From: Candidatus Woesebacteria bacterium GW2011_GWB1_38_8b
GTDB lineage: Bacteria; Patescibacteriota; Microgenomatia; UBA8517
DNA length: 36,822 nucleotides
Assembly (NCBI GenBank): GCA_000993115.1
Contig: LBVN01000002.1
Location: 1-36,822 of the forward strand
Direction: 5' to 3'
The notes under the pieces are model-generated. The model saw only the letters and a list, made by a program, of their open reading frames with translations. It was not told the DNA's origin and made no database searches. The translations under genes were made by a program, and so were the position numbers. Positions within the stretch are counted from its first letter, which is position 1, and every line of letters starts with the position of its first letter. This document shows, one piece after another, positions 1 through 9,506 of this stretch.

Positions 1-846
1 AATATTATCTTTAAAAAGCCCGACAAAATTATTTATAAACAAGCTCCACCTTGTTTGCCCGTCAGGTAAAGTTGAAAAATTGCTATTTATTATTGAAAGA
101 AATGTTTTTACCCCAAGAAATTTATTTTTCAGTTCAGCCAGGGGATATGATACAACAGGCAAAAAACCTAATGTTAGAATTTTAAACCAGTCACCGAACT
201 TTAATTTCCTTACCTTATCTCTTAAGAGAATCAACAAAACACCGACAACTAAAAATGAATAAGAAAGAATTAAATCGAACTGAGCGATAAAAGAGGTGGA
301 AACTATCATCAAAAATAAGCCTGGCTTAACTTTTTTCGAAAAACTGCTAATTAATCCCGCCCCAATAAATAAAACCGGCCAGAAAATATTTGATAGCGCA
401 GGATTTCCTGTAAAAATTCCGTAAATATATTGCTCATACGAAAACGCAAAAAGAAGCGATGCAAAAATTCCCGCAATTTTTCCAAAATAAGTAGTTCCGA
501 CAGCAAAAACCAATAAAACCCCAAGCGAATTAATTAGTCTAAAAATAATTGATACAAAGTAAGGGTCCCCCCGCCCGAGCAAAAATAGGGGACCGATAAA
601 ATATAAATAAATCGGTCCGTGGTTAATTCCTTTAAATGCCGACGCGGGAGGACCTGATATTTTCAAATCCCCTTTTGTATAAATATTTATTGAGTCGTAA
701 GCATCGCGTGCTTCATCATAACCAAAATAAACTGATTGTCGAAAGTTAATCATCCGGACTGAAAAAGAAATAATAAAAACGCAGGTCAAAAAGAGAACGA
801 TTATTTTATTTTTCGCAATGATTTTATAAAAATTTTGAAGTCTCAC
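1..846 (-). CDS. Membrane glycosyltransferase-like protein (GT39/ArnT-PMT-like), N-terminal part, runs off the window edge
   Basis: Absent from ORF track. Minus strand is open from GTG at 846 to base 1: VRLQNFYKIIAKNKIIVLFLTCVFIISFSVRMINFRQSVYFGYDEARDAYDSINIYTKGDLKISGPPASAFKGINHGPIYLYFIGPLF... Multiple hydrophobic segments, early D-E motif; in-frame TGA directly upstream of GTG. Confidence 0.8.
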   Translation of the reverse strand, partial: MRLQNFYKIIAKNKIIVLFLTCVFIISFSVRMINFRQSVYFGYDEARDAYDSINIYTKGDLKISGPPASAFKGINHGPIYLYFIGPLFLLGRGDPYFVSIIFRLINSLGVLLVFAVGTTYFGKIAGIFASLLFAFSYEQYIYGIFTGNPALSNIFWPVLFIGAGLISSFSKKVKPGLFLMIVSTSFIAQFDLILSYSFLVVGVLLILLRDKVRKLKFGDWFKILTLGFLPVVSYPLAELKNKFLGVKTFLSIINSNFSTLPDGQTRWSLFINNFVGLFKDNI

Positions 847-923
847 TCACTGATTTTACACCGAGGGTATTTGTTAGGCTACGCGTTCTTTCAAAGCACT
901 ATAAGCAAAGCTTGGCATTTCGC

Positions 924-2198
924 TCAAGCAACACGTTCCTTGAGCGCACTGTAGAATTTTTGAAGGTAATCTTCCGCACGATCCCAATGTTCATCTCCCA
1001 TTCCCCGCTCCGCCATATTTCTCTCAACATTAGCAAGAACTCTTAAGTGCGCCAATTTTGTCGCCTGAAACCTTGAAATTCTATATATTTCAGAATAAAG
1101 ATCACGCGCTATATTTTCTGTTTCCGCCGCTTCCTGAACATTACCTTTAGCTCCCCAGTCCTGCCATAAATTTACTTCAAGTGTCGCAGCCAATGACGGC
1201 TCAAATGCCAATTTAAGTTCACTCTTAATAAGTTTATAAAACTTAACAAGCGTTTTTTTAGATTTAATCCATTTACTTTGTTCACCTGAAACAACGGCAA
1301 CCGTCAAATATTTTGCGGCTTCGACAGCCAAACTTGTTGAAAGCCCAAATTGCTCCTTTAAATGGTTGATAGCGTAATCGCGAAATTTCGTACCCTCCGG
1401 AATTTTTCGAAGTCTCCACCAGTTAAGCTCCAAGTTCGCTGTGAGTTGAGGTTTAAATTTAAAGTGAAATACTTTGTCTTTTGCGCCGAACCTTCTTCTT
1501 CGTCTTGAATAGTCAATTATTGCTGCGCGCAGTTTTTCGGGAGTCATATCCGGTAAATGGTCCGGTTCAAAATAAAATTCTGAATAGACCATTTGCCAAG
1601 GAAGATACCCACTTGTACGTAGCTCACCCGAAGTACGGATAAATAAATCAGGGTTTGGGTATGGTTGACCTGCAGTATAAAGATATTTTTCAAATAGATT
1701 TTCGTCGATTTTGTCGGACGGTATATTGTCGGCAACTATTGCCTTTACCGCCTGAAGAATTTCTTCTCTCCCCCCATAATCCAAAGCCACGTTTAAAATA
1801 TGCGTTTTATTATCTTTAGTTTTTTCTTCGGCGTCCAAAATAATTTTCATCAGATCTCTAGGCAACCTGTCTTTCCGACCAATATGAATAAAACGGACAT
1901 CTTCCTCCATTGCTTCTCTTAACGTTTCCCTAATAGTGTTTTTTACAAGCTCGAAGATCTTCATTTTTTCATTGTGAGGTCTTTTCCAATTCTCCGTCGA
2001 AAATCCCCAAATAGTTAATGTGTGTACTCCCCACTCCCGAGACGCACGAATTACAGATTTTATGGCTTTTGCCCCGGCCTCATGGCCTTTTGTCACGGGA
2101 AGCCCACGGGAACGTGCCCAGCGGCCATTACCGTCTAGAATTACGGCAATATGATTTGGAACAATTGTACCTTTCGGAAGAGTAACCTTTTGGGTCAT
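924..2198 (-). CDS. uppS: Isoprenyl transferase (undecaprenyl diphosphate synthase) with about 180 aa C-terminal extension
   Basis: Motifs VILDGNGRWA, FSTENWKRP, DLFIRTSGELRTSGYLPWQ, YSEFYF, RRRRFG. Start chosen at MTQKVTLPKG (2198); the track start at 2246 lies upstream of a TATAAT box. Confidence 0.93.
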   Translation of the reverse strand: MTQKVTLPKGTIVPNHIAVILDGNGRWARSRGLPVTKGHEAGAKAIKSVIRASREWGVHTLTIWGFSTENWKRPHNEKMKIFELVKNTIRETLREAMEEDVRFIHIGRKDRLPRDLMKIILDAEEKTKDNKTHILNVALDYGGREEILQAVKAIVADNIPSDKIDENLFEKYLYTAGQPYPNPDLFIRTSGELRTSGYLPWQMVYSEFYFEPDHLPDMTPEKLRAAIIDYSRRRRRFGAKDKVFHFKFKPQLTANLELNWWRLRKIPEGTKFRDYAINHLKEQFGLSTSLAVEAAKYLTVAVVSGEQSKWIKSKKTLVKFYKLIKSELKLAFEPSLAATLEVNLWQDWGAKGNVQEAAETENIARDLYSEIYRISRFQATKLAHLRVLANVERNMAERGMGDEHWDRAEDYLQKFYSALKERVA

Positions 2199-4697: not shown

Positions 4698-5499
4698 GTA
4701 AGAATATAATTTTTGTACCAATATCTTCTCCTGTCAGGGCTTTATATACACTCCCCTTAGCTAACGCGTTAAAAATATGACAACTTAACGGACGGGTTTT
4801 TATTTTGAATATTTCCTCTAATTTTCCCCGCATTCCTCCGGTTACATCTAAATCTCCCGAATGACTCACCAATTTAAGAACGGATTTGTAATTGCTATCA
4901 TTTATATCGGGGATATGGACTGCGTTTGTGTTTTTATTCGGATCATTATCGTAAATACCATTAACATTAGTTCCAAAATATAGTTCATTAATTTTTAATC
5001 CTTCCATAATGTATGGCGTAATTTGATCGCCGGAAAGGATGCTGAATTTATAGTCCGAATCAATCACGGTATCTCCCCACAAAAACGGCAGTAACCCACG
5101 ATTTAAACCTTCTGAAATATTTTTTGTGAAAGCCTTCTCAATTCTTCTTTTTTTTAATAAAAAAACGGATGATGGCATTATAGGAAACAAGGGTACTTTG
5201 TGTTTATGAAATATCTCAGCGATTTGAATTGACATTTTTTGCATATTTGTAGTGGTTAAAGTAAATCCAATGTTGCTTTTAATTTTTTTGGAAGAGTTTA
5301 AATTGAATTTATGCGCAAGCGGGTGACCAAAAGATCCAGCTCCGGACACTAATATTAATTTGTTAACCCTGCTTTCTTTAAGCCATAAGGAAATATCTTT
5401 TGCAATACTTTTGACAACATCGACATTTAGCGCAGAATCCTTATTCTTATAAGTCACAACACTTCCACCAATTTTAAGAACTTTGATATTTTTTGCCAT
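4684..5499 (-). CDS. Isopentenyl phosphate kinase (amino acid kinase family)
   Basis: KIGGSVVT; VSGAGSFGHPLAHKF with the catalytic-type His; LSGDQITPYI; VTGGMRGKLEE. Confidence 0.85.
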   Translation of the reverse strand: MAKNIKVLKIGGSVVTYKNKDSALNVDVVKSIAKDISLWLKESRVNKLILVSGAGSFGHPLAHKFNLNSSKKIKSNIGFTLTTTNMQKMSIQIAEIFHKHKVPLFPIMPSSVFLLKKRRIEKAFTKNISEGLNRGLLPFLWGDTVIDSDYKFSILSGDQITPYIMEGLKINELYFGTNVNGIYDNDPNKNTNAVHIPDINDSNYKSVLKLVSHSGDLDVTGGMRGKLEEIFKIKTRPLSCHIFNALAKGSVYKALTGEDIGTKIIFLHGEK

Positions 5500-6510
5500 T
5501 TAAAACAAATGTTTGTTTGTTAATTGAGTACCTCGACAAGGTTTATTAGAAATAGTAAATAATACTTCAGGAAGTCTTTTAAACCTCGAGTTTAACTTAG
5601 AAACATCTTTTGCCAGACAAATTACGTGAACATTAGCCCCGGCATCCATTGTAAAAAAACCTGTTAATCCAACTTCTCTCCACTTTCTAATTTTGTTCAT
5701 GATTTCAACTGTGCCTTTATTCCAATAAAATATAGGCGGGTTTGATGTCATTGCCATAACATGCAGTTCAATTGCCTCTTGCTCAATAAGCTCACCCAAT
5801 TTTAAAAAGTTTTTCTTTTTAATTGCACCAATTACCCCAAGAGTTCTTCGTTGAAGATTTTTTTGACGTGTTTTGAAAAAGGGACTTGTAAGCGCAACAC
5901 CATGCCCTTCAGTAGAACTTTTCTTTTTCATTTTCTCAACAACCACCACGATATCTCTTAAGTCCCAATAACTTTCAGGGGCAATTTGAGCAGCAAAAGA
6001 AGTAGCATTGTTCGCTCCTTTTTTCCACCAGGCAAAACCATCGACTATAGATCTTGATGCAGATCCTGATCCGATTCTGGCCAAAATTGATAACTCTTTT
6101 TCTGATAGCGTTAAATCGGATGCAACACTTCCTGCCAGTGCAAGCGCAGAAAAAGCTGATGCGGACGAAGCAATTCCTGAGTCGGAAGGGAAATTATTTT
6201 TTGACACTACTTTAACGCCGTATGAAACTCCGGATTTTTCGCGGATTAAATCAATGATATTTAACACCCGAAGTTTTTTATCTTCCGCCAATTCTTTCCC
6301 ATCAACAATGACTTTATCACTTCTGAAACGCGGGTTAAATTCAACAGTTGTTGTTGTTAAGCATTTATCCAAATTCATCGAGACAGAGTCATTGAAAGGA
6401 ATATTAAGCTTAGAATTTTTCTTACCCCAGTATTTAATAAAAGCGATATTTGCAGGGGATACCGCTGTTGCTTTGGAGGTTTTAGATCTTCTTAAAATTC
6501 TTTTTCCCAT
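5500..6510 (-). CDS. mvaD: GHMP-family (di)phosphomevalonate decarboxylase
   Basis: SPANIAFIKYWGKKN, NDSVSMNL, SDSGIASSASAFSALA, FTMDAGANVHVI motifs of mevalonate diphosphate decarboxylase-type proteins. Confidence 0.88.
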   Translation of the reverse strand: MGKRILRRSKTSKATAVSPANIAFIKYWGKKNSKLNIPFNDSVSMNLDKCLTTTTVEFNPRFRSDKVIVDGKELAEDKKLRVLNIIDLIREKSGVSYGVKVVSKNNFPSDSGIASSASAFSALALAGSVASDLTLSEKELSILARIGSGSASRSIVDGFAWWKKGANNATSFAAQIAPESYWDLRDIVVVVEKMKKKSSTEGHGVALTSPFFKTRQKNLQRRTLGVIGAIKKKNFLKLGELIEQEAIELHVMAMTSNPPIFYWNKGTVEIMNKIRKWREVGLTGFFTMDAGANVHVICLAKDVSKLNSRFKRLPEVLFTISNKPCRGTQLTNKHLF

Positions 6511-6566
6511 AGATATAAGTTATATATACAGGAAATTAATTCTCATTTCATCCCTTGAAGTAAAAG

Positions 6567-6983
6567 TTATCGCTTTGGCGATTGTTTCTTTCGTCTTGCC
6601 TTTCCACCTGTTCCGACTTTGCGTCGTTCTCGGATTCTTGCATCGCGGGTTAAAAGTCCTGCTGTTTTAAGAGGTTTTCTGAATTTTTCTTTATCTTCTT
6701 TAACAAATGCTTTGGAAATTGCGTGAGCAACGGCTTCAACTTGTCCCTGTTTTCCACCGCCAATTACCCGAACAGTTACATAATATTTTTCGGAAACATC
6801 TAAGATTCTAAATGGTCTTGACCAAATATCCCGGTTAACAGACCCCGGGAAATATTTTTCTATCGGCATGGAATTCACCGTACTCTCACCTTTTCCTTTA
6901 AAAAGGCTGACTCTGGCGGATGCAGATTTTCTGCGTCCAACGGAGTAAGAATAATTTGTTTTTTTAATTTTTGCCTTTACCAT
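6567..6983 (-). CDS. rpsI: 30S ribosomal protein S9
   Basis: YSVGRRKSASARV ... VRVIGGGKQGQVEAVAHAISKA ... LLTRDARIRERRKVGTGGKARRKKQSPKR. Confidence 0.97.
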   Translation of the reverse strand: MVKAKIKKTNYSYSVGRRKSASARVSLFKGKGESTVNSMPIEKYFPGSVNRDIWSRPFRILDVSEKYYVTVRVIGGGKQGQVEAVAHAISKAFVKEDKEKFRKPLKTAGLLTRDARIRERRKVGTGGKARRKKQSPKR

Positions 6984-8906: not shown

Positions 8907-9506
8907 TTACCTGGAATAAAATTCAACTATATCCTGTTCTGAAATGGGTTCAATAATATCTTCTTTTAGCGGAAATCTTACTATTCTACCAGCCGCGGCC
9001 TTTCTTTCCAACCACGAAGGTAGTTTTGTATTTTCCTGATCTAAAAGTTTCTTAATATGAGGAATCTTCATGGCAATTCCGGAAAGTATAACCGTATCTC
9101 CGATTTTGACTTGATATGAAGGAATGTTTAATCTTTTGCCATTTACCAATACATGCCTGTGGGAAACAAGTTGGCGTGCACCCGGTCTGGTTTGTGCAAA
9201 TCCAAGTCTGAAAATTACATTATCAAGTCTTCGCTCAAGCTGCGAAAGTAACATTTCTCCTGTATTTCCACGGGTCTTAAGAGCATTTTCAACATAAGTT
9301 CTAAATTGTTTTTCCATGAGACCATATAATCTTTTGACTTTTTGTTTCTCACGAAGCTGCCTCCCGTACTGCGACGGTTTTCGACCACCTCTGGGTCCGT
9401 GCATTCCTGGCGGAACACCAAGCCTTGTGAGTTTTGATCCTTTTCCAAAAAGATCAAATCCCTCACGTCTTGACAGTCTATCTTTTGGTCCTGTATATCT
9501 TGCCAT
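8907..9506 (-). CDS. rpsD: 30S ribosomal protein S4
   Basis: RLSRREGFDLFGKG ... LERRLDNVIFRLGFAQTRPGARQLVSHRHVLVNGK. Confidence 0.98.
   Translation of the reverse strand: MARYTGPKDRLSRREGFDLFGKGSKLTRLGVPPGMHGPRGGRKPSQYGRQLREKQKVKRLYGLMEKQFRTYVENALKTRGNTGEMLLSQLERRLDNVIFRLGFAQTRPGARQLVSHRHVLVNGKRLNIPSYQVKIGDTVILSGIAMKIPHIKKLLDQENTKLPSWLERKAAAGRIVRFPLKEDIIEPISEQDIVEFYSR

Follow-up and report, generated by a model that had tools for sequence, protein, structure and literature searches.

A dispersed mini hairpin repeat at the duplicated 3' end of uppS in Candidatus Woesebacteria, and the probable origin of the second tail

Background

Why would a gene carry its own ending twice? The question is raised by the essential cell-wall gene uppS in Candidatus Woesebacteria bacterium GW2011_GWB1_38_8b (the source genome, G000; 0.9 Mb), whose contig C2 provided the window, that is, the whole stretch of 36,822 nucleotides analysed here. 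An original prediction, made from the letters alone, had noticed that the last nine sense codons of uppS reappear after its stop codon with synonymous changes. It proposed that both tails had been translated before they became neighbours, and that a diverged 3' end had replaced the old one and left it stranded, as in phage attachment at icd of E. coli. We followed the locus through the family, whose members are likewise named Candidatus Woesebacteria. The features concerned are the following.

924..2198, minus strand: uppS, undecaprenyl diphosphate synthase with a C-terminal extension of ~180 aa
924..953, minus strand: T1, the functional uppS tail (TAC AGT GCG CTC AAG GAA CGT GTT GCT TGA), which also forms hairpin 1's 5' arm and loop
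916..928, minus strand: X, the 3' arm of hairpin 1 (CTTGAGCGAAATG), which overlaps the stop codon and complements tail codons (CGCTCAAG/CTTGAGCG)
902..915, minus strand: CCAAGCTTTGCTTA, the core of a dispersed repeat, with an AAGC-TTT-GCTT mini-hairpin, ending in a TA junction
874..903, minus strand: T2, the stranded old tail (TAT AGT GCT TTG AAA GAA CGC GTA GCC TAA)
1..846, minus strand: the next gene, a membrane-protein-like ORF that starts at a GTG directly behind T2 and is cut off by the contig end

Results

The first 228 aa of the uppS stretch tested match Pfam PF01255 (E=5.7e-73), and the orthologues in the family align over 414 aa. Their C-terminus, (Y)xALKERVA, is conserved, the last seven residues being ALKERVA or near variants. 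A Pfam search with the next gene gave no match. Re-reading the window confirmed the pair of tails as described: T1 and T2 both read YSALKERVA and a stop, seven of the nine sense codons differ without changing a residue, and 9 of the 30 nt are different when the stop codon is counted. The tails are offset by exactly 50 nt with a spacer of 20 nt, and because of this offset T2 is out of frame with uppS. Could such a pair be a chance match? Among the 1,999 pre-stop 9-mers in the six frames of the window YSALKERVA is the sole one that is repeated, no other pair sharing more than 6 of 9 residues. When nine random substitutions were placed in the G000 tail, the peptide and the stop were kept in 0 of 200,000 simulations; for the intact-tail pairs of two relatives, G011 and G030, the same simulation gave P <= 4e-5. 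Thus both uppS tails had been coding before they became neighbours. The synonymous-only differences exclude in-place duplication followed by drift for these three genomes; one tail replaced the other en bloc.

Is the arrangement peculiar to this genome? Arrays of uppS tails were found in 5 of 50 Woesebacteria genomes, which fall in five separate clades of the uppS tree where most relatives are single-tailed; the largest has three readable tails and one decayed. There are two readable tails in G000, three in G011 (followed by a decayed, broken fourth), three in G030 (the third reads APALKERVA) and two, identical to each other, in G060. In G031 the second tail has decayed to YSTLKERVT, and in G010 the inverted arm and the core are present and a readable second tail is absent. 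Spacing is 50-77 nt across all arrays, and the tails farther from uppS are the more decayed ones (G030, G011, G031). In 56 relatives ALKERVA followed by a stop is nearly always confined to a single place per genome, the end of uppS (reversed control, 0). A genome-wide C-terminal motif was considered and rejected, the sequence being restricted to uppS and its arrays. The prediction had itself allowed for two doubts, that all close relatives share the arrangement and that it is an artefact of sequencing or assembly. Relatives free of a second tail exist in most clades, and an assembly artefact is very unlikely because independent MAGs from other projects carry arrays of like kind.

The codons of the tails can also be compared between lineages. 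T2 of G000 matches T1 of G011, a functional tail, at 28/30 nt, and T1 of G000 resembles T3 of G011 (26/30) and T2 of G030 (24/30); like tails are therefore stacked in opposite order. The codon identity of LKERVA is 0.53 in four array genomes versus 0.34 in single-tail genomes ending in ALKERVA (permutation p ~0.03). This sequence comparison suggests tails shared across lineages, a modest signal, and the match to array tails is just as good in some single-tail genomes (20/21). In the sister pair G031/G017 the tail is not clearly singled out as replaced, and the uppS tails of control pairs are synonymously variable too. Other uppS loci of the family show features of their own. G057 has two full-length diverged uppS paralogues in tandem, ~2 kb apart (L099 1927..3216, 5297..6595), each ending in ALKER(V/I)A; in the MAG of G003 (L118/L030) uppS is frameshifted between codons ~358 and 379; and in G059 (L307 868..1575) a RAYT-like Y1 transposase gene lies convergent, right at the uppS 3' end.

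What lies between the two tails? The spacer contains CCAAGCTTTGCTTA, the core of a dispersed hairpin repeat with many other insertion sites, a point absent from the original prediction. With up to 2 mismatches allowed, AATGCYAAGSTYTSCTTA recurs elsewhere in the family genomes; the exact core CAAGCTYYGCTTA was counted 341 times, in 44 of 50 of them (reversed control, 1), each genome having 0-36. Elsewhere in the class the distribution is patchy, with many copies in the families f2, f3, f5 and f9 and none in others. Copies are single or form head-to-tail arrays with periods of 24-36 nt, and those beside a gene often duplicate its end. Most likely, the units belong to a mobile mini hairpin element that Woesebacteria share with other families of their class. 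A double unit of the core, with a CCGAGTC..GACTCGG hairpin, lies at the same place near tmRNA in G000 (L087 2327..2368) and G014 (L075 2392..); since these are two genera, some core copies are old and conserved. An Rfam search at gathering score with 10 core loci returned tRNA and tmRNA matches only.

The unit, of 30-60 nt, consists of TA, hairpin 1 (a variable stem plus loop), (C)CAAGCTYYGCT and TA. The stem-loop of variable sequence lies to the left of the core, with its 5' arm following TA. At 71 of 143 distinct loci the core is preceded by TA and 4 nt complementary to the 3' arm (9 expected), and at 27 by a 6-nt arm (0.7 expected). The last letters of the core are TTA, and adjoining units are therefore joined at TA. 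The two sides of the core do not generally pair; where they do, the right flank mostly repeats the left one. The ends of the unit are variable (CC.., CAG..) versus ..AAGCTYYGCT; the left junction is YTAC at the tRNA and uppS sites (GTAG/GTAA on the other strand), and TTAT and others occur. At uppS, the final ten codons, stop included, form the 5' arm and loop of hairpin 1, beginning with the TA of the conserved Tyr codon; the pairing uses the tail codons from AGT GC onward, and the 3' arm is an inverted arm after the stop. The arms are CGCTCAAG/CTTGAGCG in G000 and TGCTCTCAA/TTGAGAGCA in the third unit of G011. In the seven uppS units the true T1/X arm pairs beat permuted pairs (p=0.0004). Those of G000 and G010 and two of G011 fold in one layout with a conserved mismatch near the base, and the fold energies are mildly better than those of shuffles (z about -1.4 to -1.6). 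Because the arms co-vary and the units fold alike, T1, arm and core act as one unit, of which T2 is not a partner in G000.

Are the ends of other genes duplicated in the same way? The sequence to the right of the core repeats that to the left in 23 of 149 loci (score >= 12) and in 0 of 447 control pairings. Some of the 23 are array-internal copies, and ~13 are tRNA genes (Leu, Gly, Gln, Trp, Ile, Thr, Ala and others). At the tRNA loci 14-27 nt are repeated; the repeat starts at CTA^CC in the D-loop and runs up to the 5' end of the tRNA or slightly past it, some duplications overrunning the gene by 3-9 nt. One copy stays in the intact tRNA and the inverted arm precedes the core, so the geometry is that of uppS: intact gene (T1), inverted arm, core, stranded copy (T2). 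In G061 a 30-nt unit sits within tRNA D-loop sequence at CTA^CC, without a restoring copy. The same genome has on contig C6 (L323 7607..9181, 9174..9322) a putative large serine recombinase ORF of 524 aa, judged by its N-terminal sequence, beside tRNA-Lys and a tRNA-like sequence in which two core units interrupt the D-loop.

Do the units move? G061 and G007 are close sisters, with 86% identity in the uppS region, and 0 of the tested G061 core loci share flanks with the G007 loci compared. One clean empty site was seen in G007 versus G061, a 30-nt indel with ATCAT flanking the filled site on both sides, the other alignments being too diverged to read; at this locus the unit is mobile. The tRNA-Leu locus of G009 was discarded as an empty site, as it carries another degenerate unit.

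RAYT/Y1 genes are present in 23 of 50 genomes, the five array genomes among them, and none was detected in several copy-rich ones (G025, G002, G019, G007, G010). Of ~20 Y1_Tnp loci inspected, the core is near two (G061:C5, G008:C34) and inside one ORF (G011:C8), and at none is it on both sides of the gene. RAYT as the driver was rejected, there being copy-rich genomes with no RAYT detected and the core being rarely near RAYT genes. In the G011:C8 case (L304/L309 1673..1685) the exact core CAAGCTTTGCTTA is in frame within the RAYT coding sequence (SSFAY), possibly by chance.

Discussion

How did the uppS tail pair come about? A tail-carrying hairpin unit from a diverged uppS would most likely have inserted at TA^C in the Tyr codon. 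With T1 the incoming unit would have given the gene a new working 3' end, and the tail already there would have been displaced downstream to become T2; repeated insertion may then have produced the longer arrays of G011 and G030. We consider such an insertion the probable origin of the pair. The decay of tails with distance from uppS is expected if newcomers arrive at the gene-proximal position. We infer the order of events, the source in another lineage and the enzyme. Insertion of an incoming unit is favoured over homologous recombination, not proven, since the cross-lineage signal is modest and some single-tail genomes match equally well. Away from uppS, the genomes examined yielded no unit with a full uppS tail that could be the donor, and the identical tails of G060 are also explicable by simple in-place duplication.

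The strongest competitor, in our judgement a good deal less probable, is that the unit arose where it stands: the core hairpin would have primed its own foldback synthesis, and return to the template would have duplicated the tail. T1 would later have been exchanged, as far as the shared core, by homologous recombination or gene conversion with a diverged uppS, and the old T2 would have stayed behind. This rival accounts well for the X arms, which are inverted copies of the adjacent T at tRNA and uppS loci alike, for G060, where there are two identical tails and nothing else changed, and for the tRNA duplications that overrun the gene. However, it needs two independent processes in several lineages, the uppS bodies are only 57-64% nucleotide-identical, and the T duplication often ends exactly at a gene boundary, for example at the stop codon in G060. 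A simple tandem duplication of the tail followed by drift would suit the 24-36-nt tandem units common in these genomes and the G060 pair, but is rejected by the substitution simulations for G000, G011 and G030, and is very improbable.

Might the second tail itself be expressed and selected, as a mini-ORF (MPSFAYSALKERVA), a frameshift rescue or a tag? There is an ATG five codons before T2 in G000, G011, G030 and G060. Nevertheless, this ATG belongs to the arm-core junction, the frame offset differs between genomes (50 or 55 nt), the distal tails decay in G011, G030 and G031, and the tmRNA tags of three relatives do not end in ALKERVA; we give such a role hardly any weight. For the last of these reasons tmRNA was also dropped as a source of the tail, the G000 tag being unresolved by ARAGORN. 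Equally slight is the probability that the uppS 3' end once served as the target of a site-specific phage or integrative element that was later deleted: such an element would restore the gene end as at icd, and the recombinase-like ORF of G061 does adjoin core units, yet the conserved 50/55-nt spacing and the conserved spacer repeat are unlike random deletion scars, neither an integrase nor a kilobase element lies between the tails in any genome examined, and no viral contig searched carries the tail. The G057 candidate for a large element between tails is the pair of paralogues described above. The original prediction is partly supported: replacement of the old 3' end by a diverged one is largely borne out, and the vehicle appears to be this element rather than one of phage type with an integrase.

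To which known elements is the unit related? It resembles the REP or GTAG-tagged repeats and the RAYT-associated REPINs in being a short stem-loop, dispersed, single or arrayed (20-40 bp in REP), and in the presence of RAYT/Y1 genes in the family. But REP reach >100 copies per genome, against the 0-36 exact cores here, their RAYT gene is flanked by repeats, which was seen at none of the ~20 loci inspected here, and the conserved part here is the small core hairpin and not the main stem. As to the terminal GTAG/CGTC tetranucleotide of REP, one end of the unit bears YTAC at tRNA and uppS sites (GTAR on the other strand), and TTAT and others occur besides. Duplication of 5-30 nt of a gene end is not among the features that define REP (PMC3733652). 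With icd and tRNA attachment sites the unit shares an insert that gives a working gene end and strands the old one, an intact gene and a fragment being left at uppS and tRNA loci. Unlike them, the units are gene-free, 30-60 nt long and found at many different target genes, the gene-end copies enclose no integrase, and it is the tRNA 5' end rather than the 3' end that is duplicated. Rickettsia palindromic elements (RPE), which insert in frame inside ORFs, and bacterial MITEs are likewise small hairpin insertions, able to sit within or overlap genes that keep working. The terminal inverted repeats inside a TA duplication that mark TA-target MITEs (IS630/mariner type) are absent here, the unit ends being variable, and RPE carry CGTC ends (PMC3733652). 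The ends of IS200/IS605 (TTAC target) have subterminal hairpins and a TTAC-like junction in common with the unit; here, no autonomous copy with these ends was seen and the flank duplication is variable. The IS200/IS605 family is not known to make such duplications. In its action the element resembles the REP/RPE-type palindromic mini-elements, and at gene ends gene-restoring attachment sites. A literature search on Woesebacteria or Microgenomates and palindromic repeats, with preprints and most subscription journals outside it, found no description of the element.

Conclusions

It is conceivable, though somewhat short of an even chance, that these units form a new class of mini mobile hairpins in Microgenomatia-type CPR bacteria, one that carries gene ends in its own loop, moves between species, re-tails an essential gene with each insertion and leaves a stack of former tails that can be read as its history. 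The CPR bacteria, in which small-scale mobile DNA is little described, gain a widespread dispersed repeat with an unusual habit. Gene-adjacent copies repeat the end of their neighbour (the 5' end of a tRNA, the 3' end of uppS), so that a gene is not harmed by an insertion inside it. Older tails are kept in their order within the uppS arrays, which therefore record repeated gene-end replacement. Finally, a self-primed or single-strand mechanism, open to testing, is suggested by three features: the variable flank duplication, the hairpin arm that complements the duplicated target, and the fixed core.
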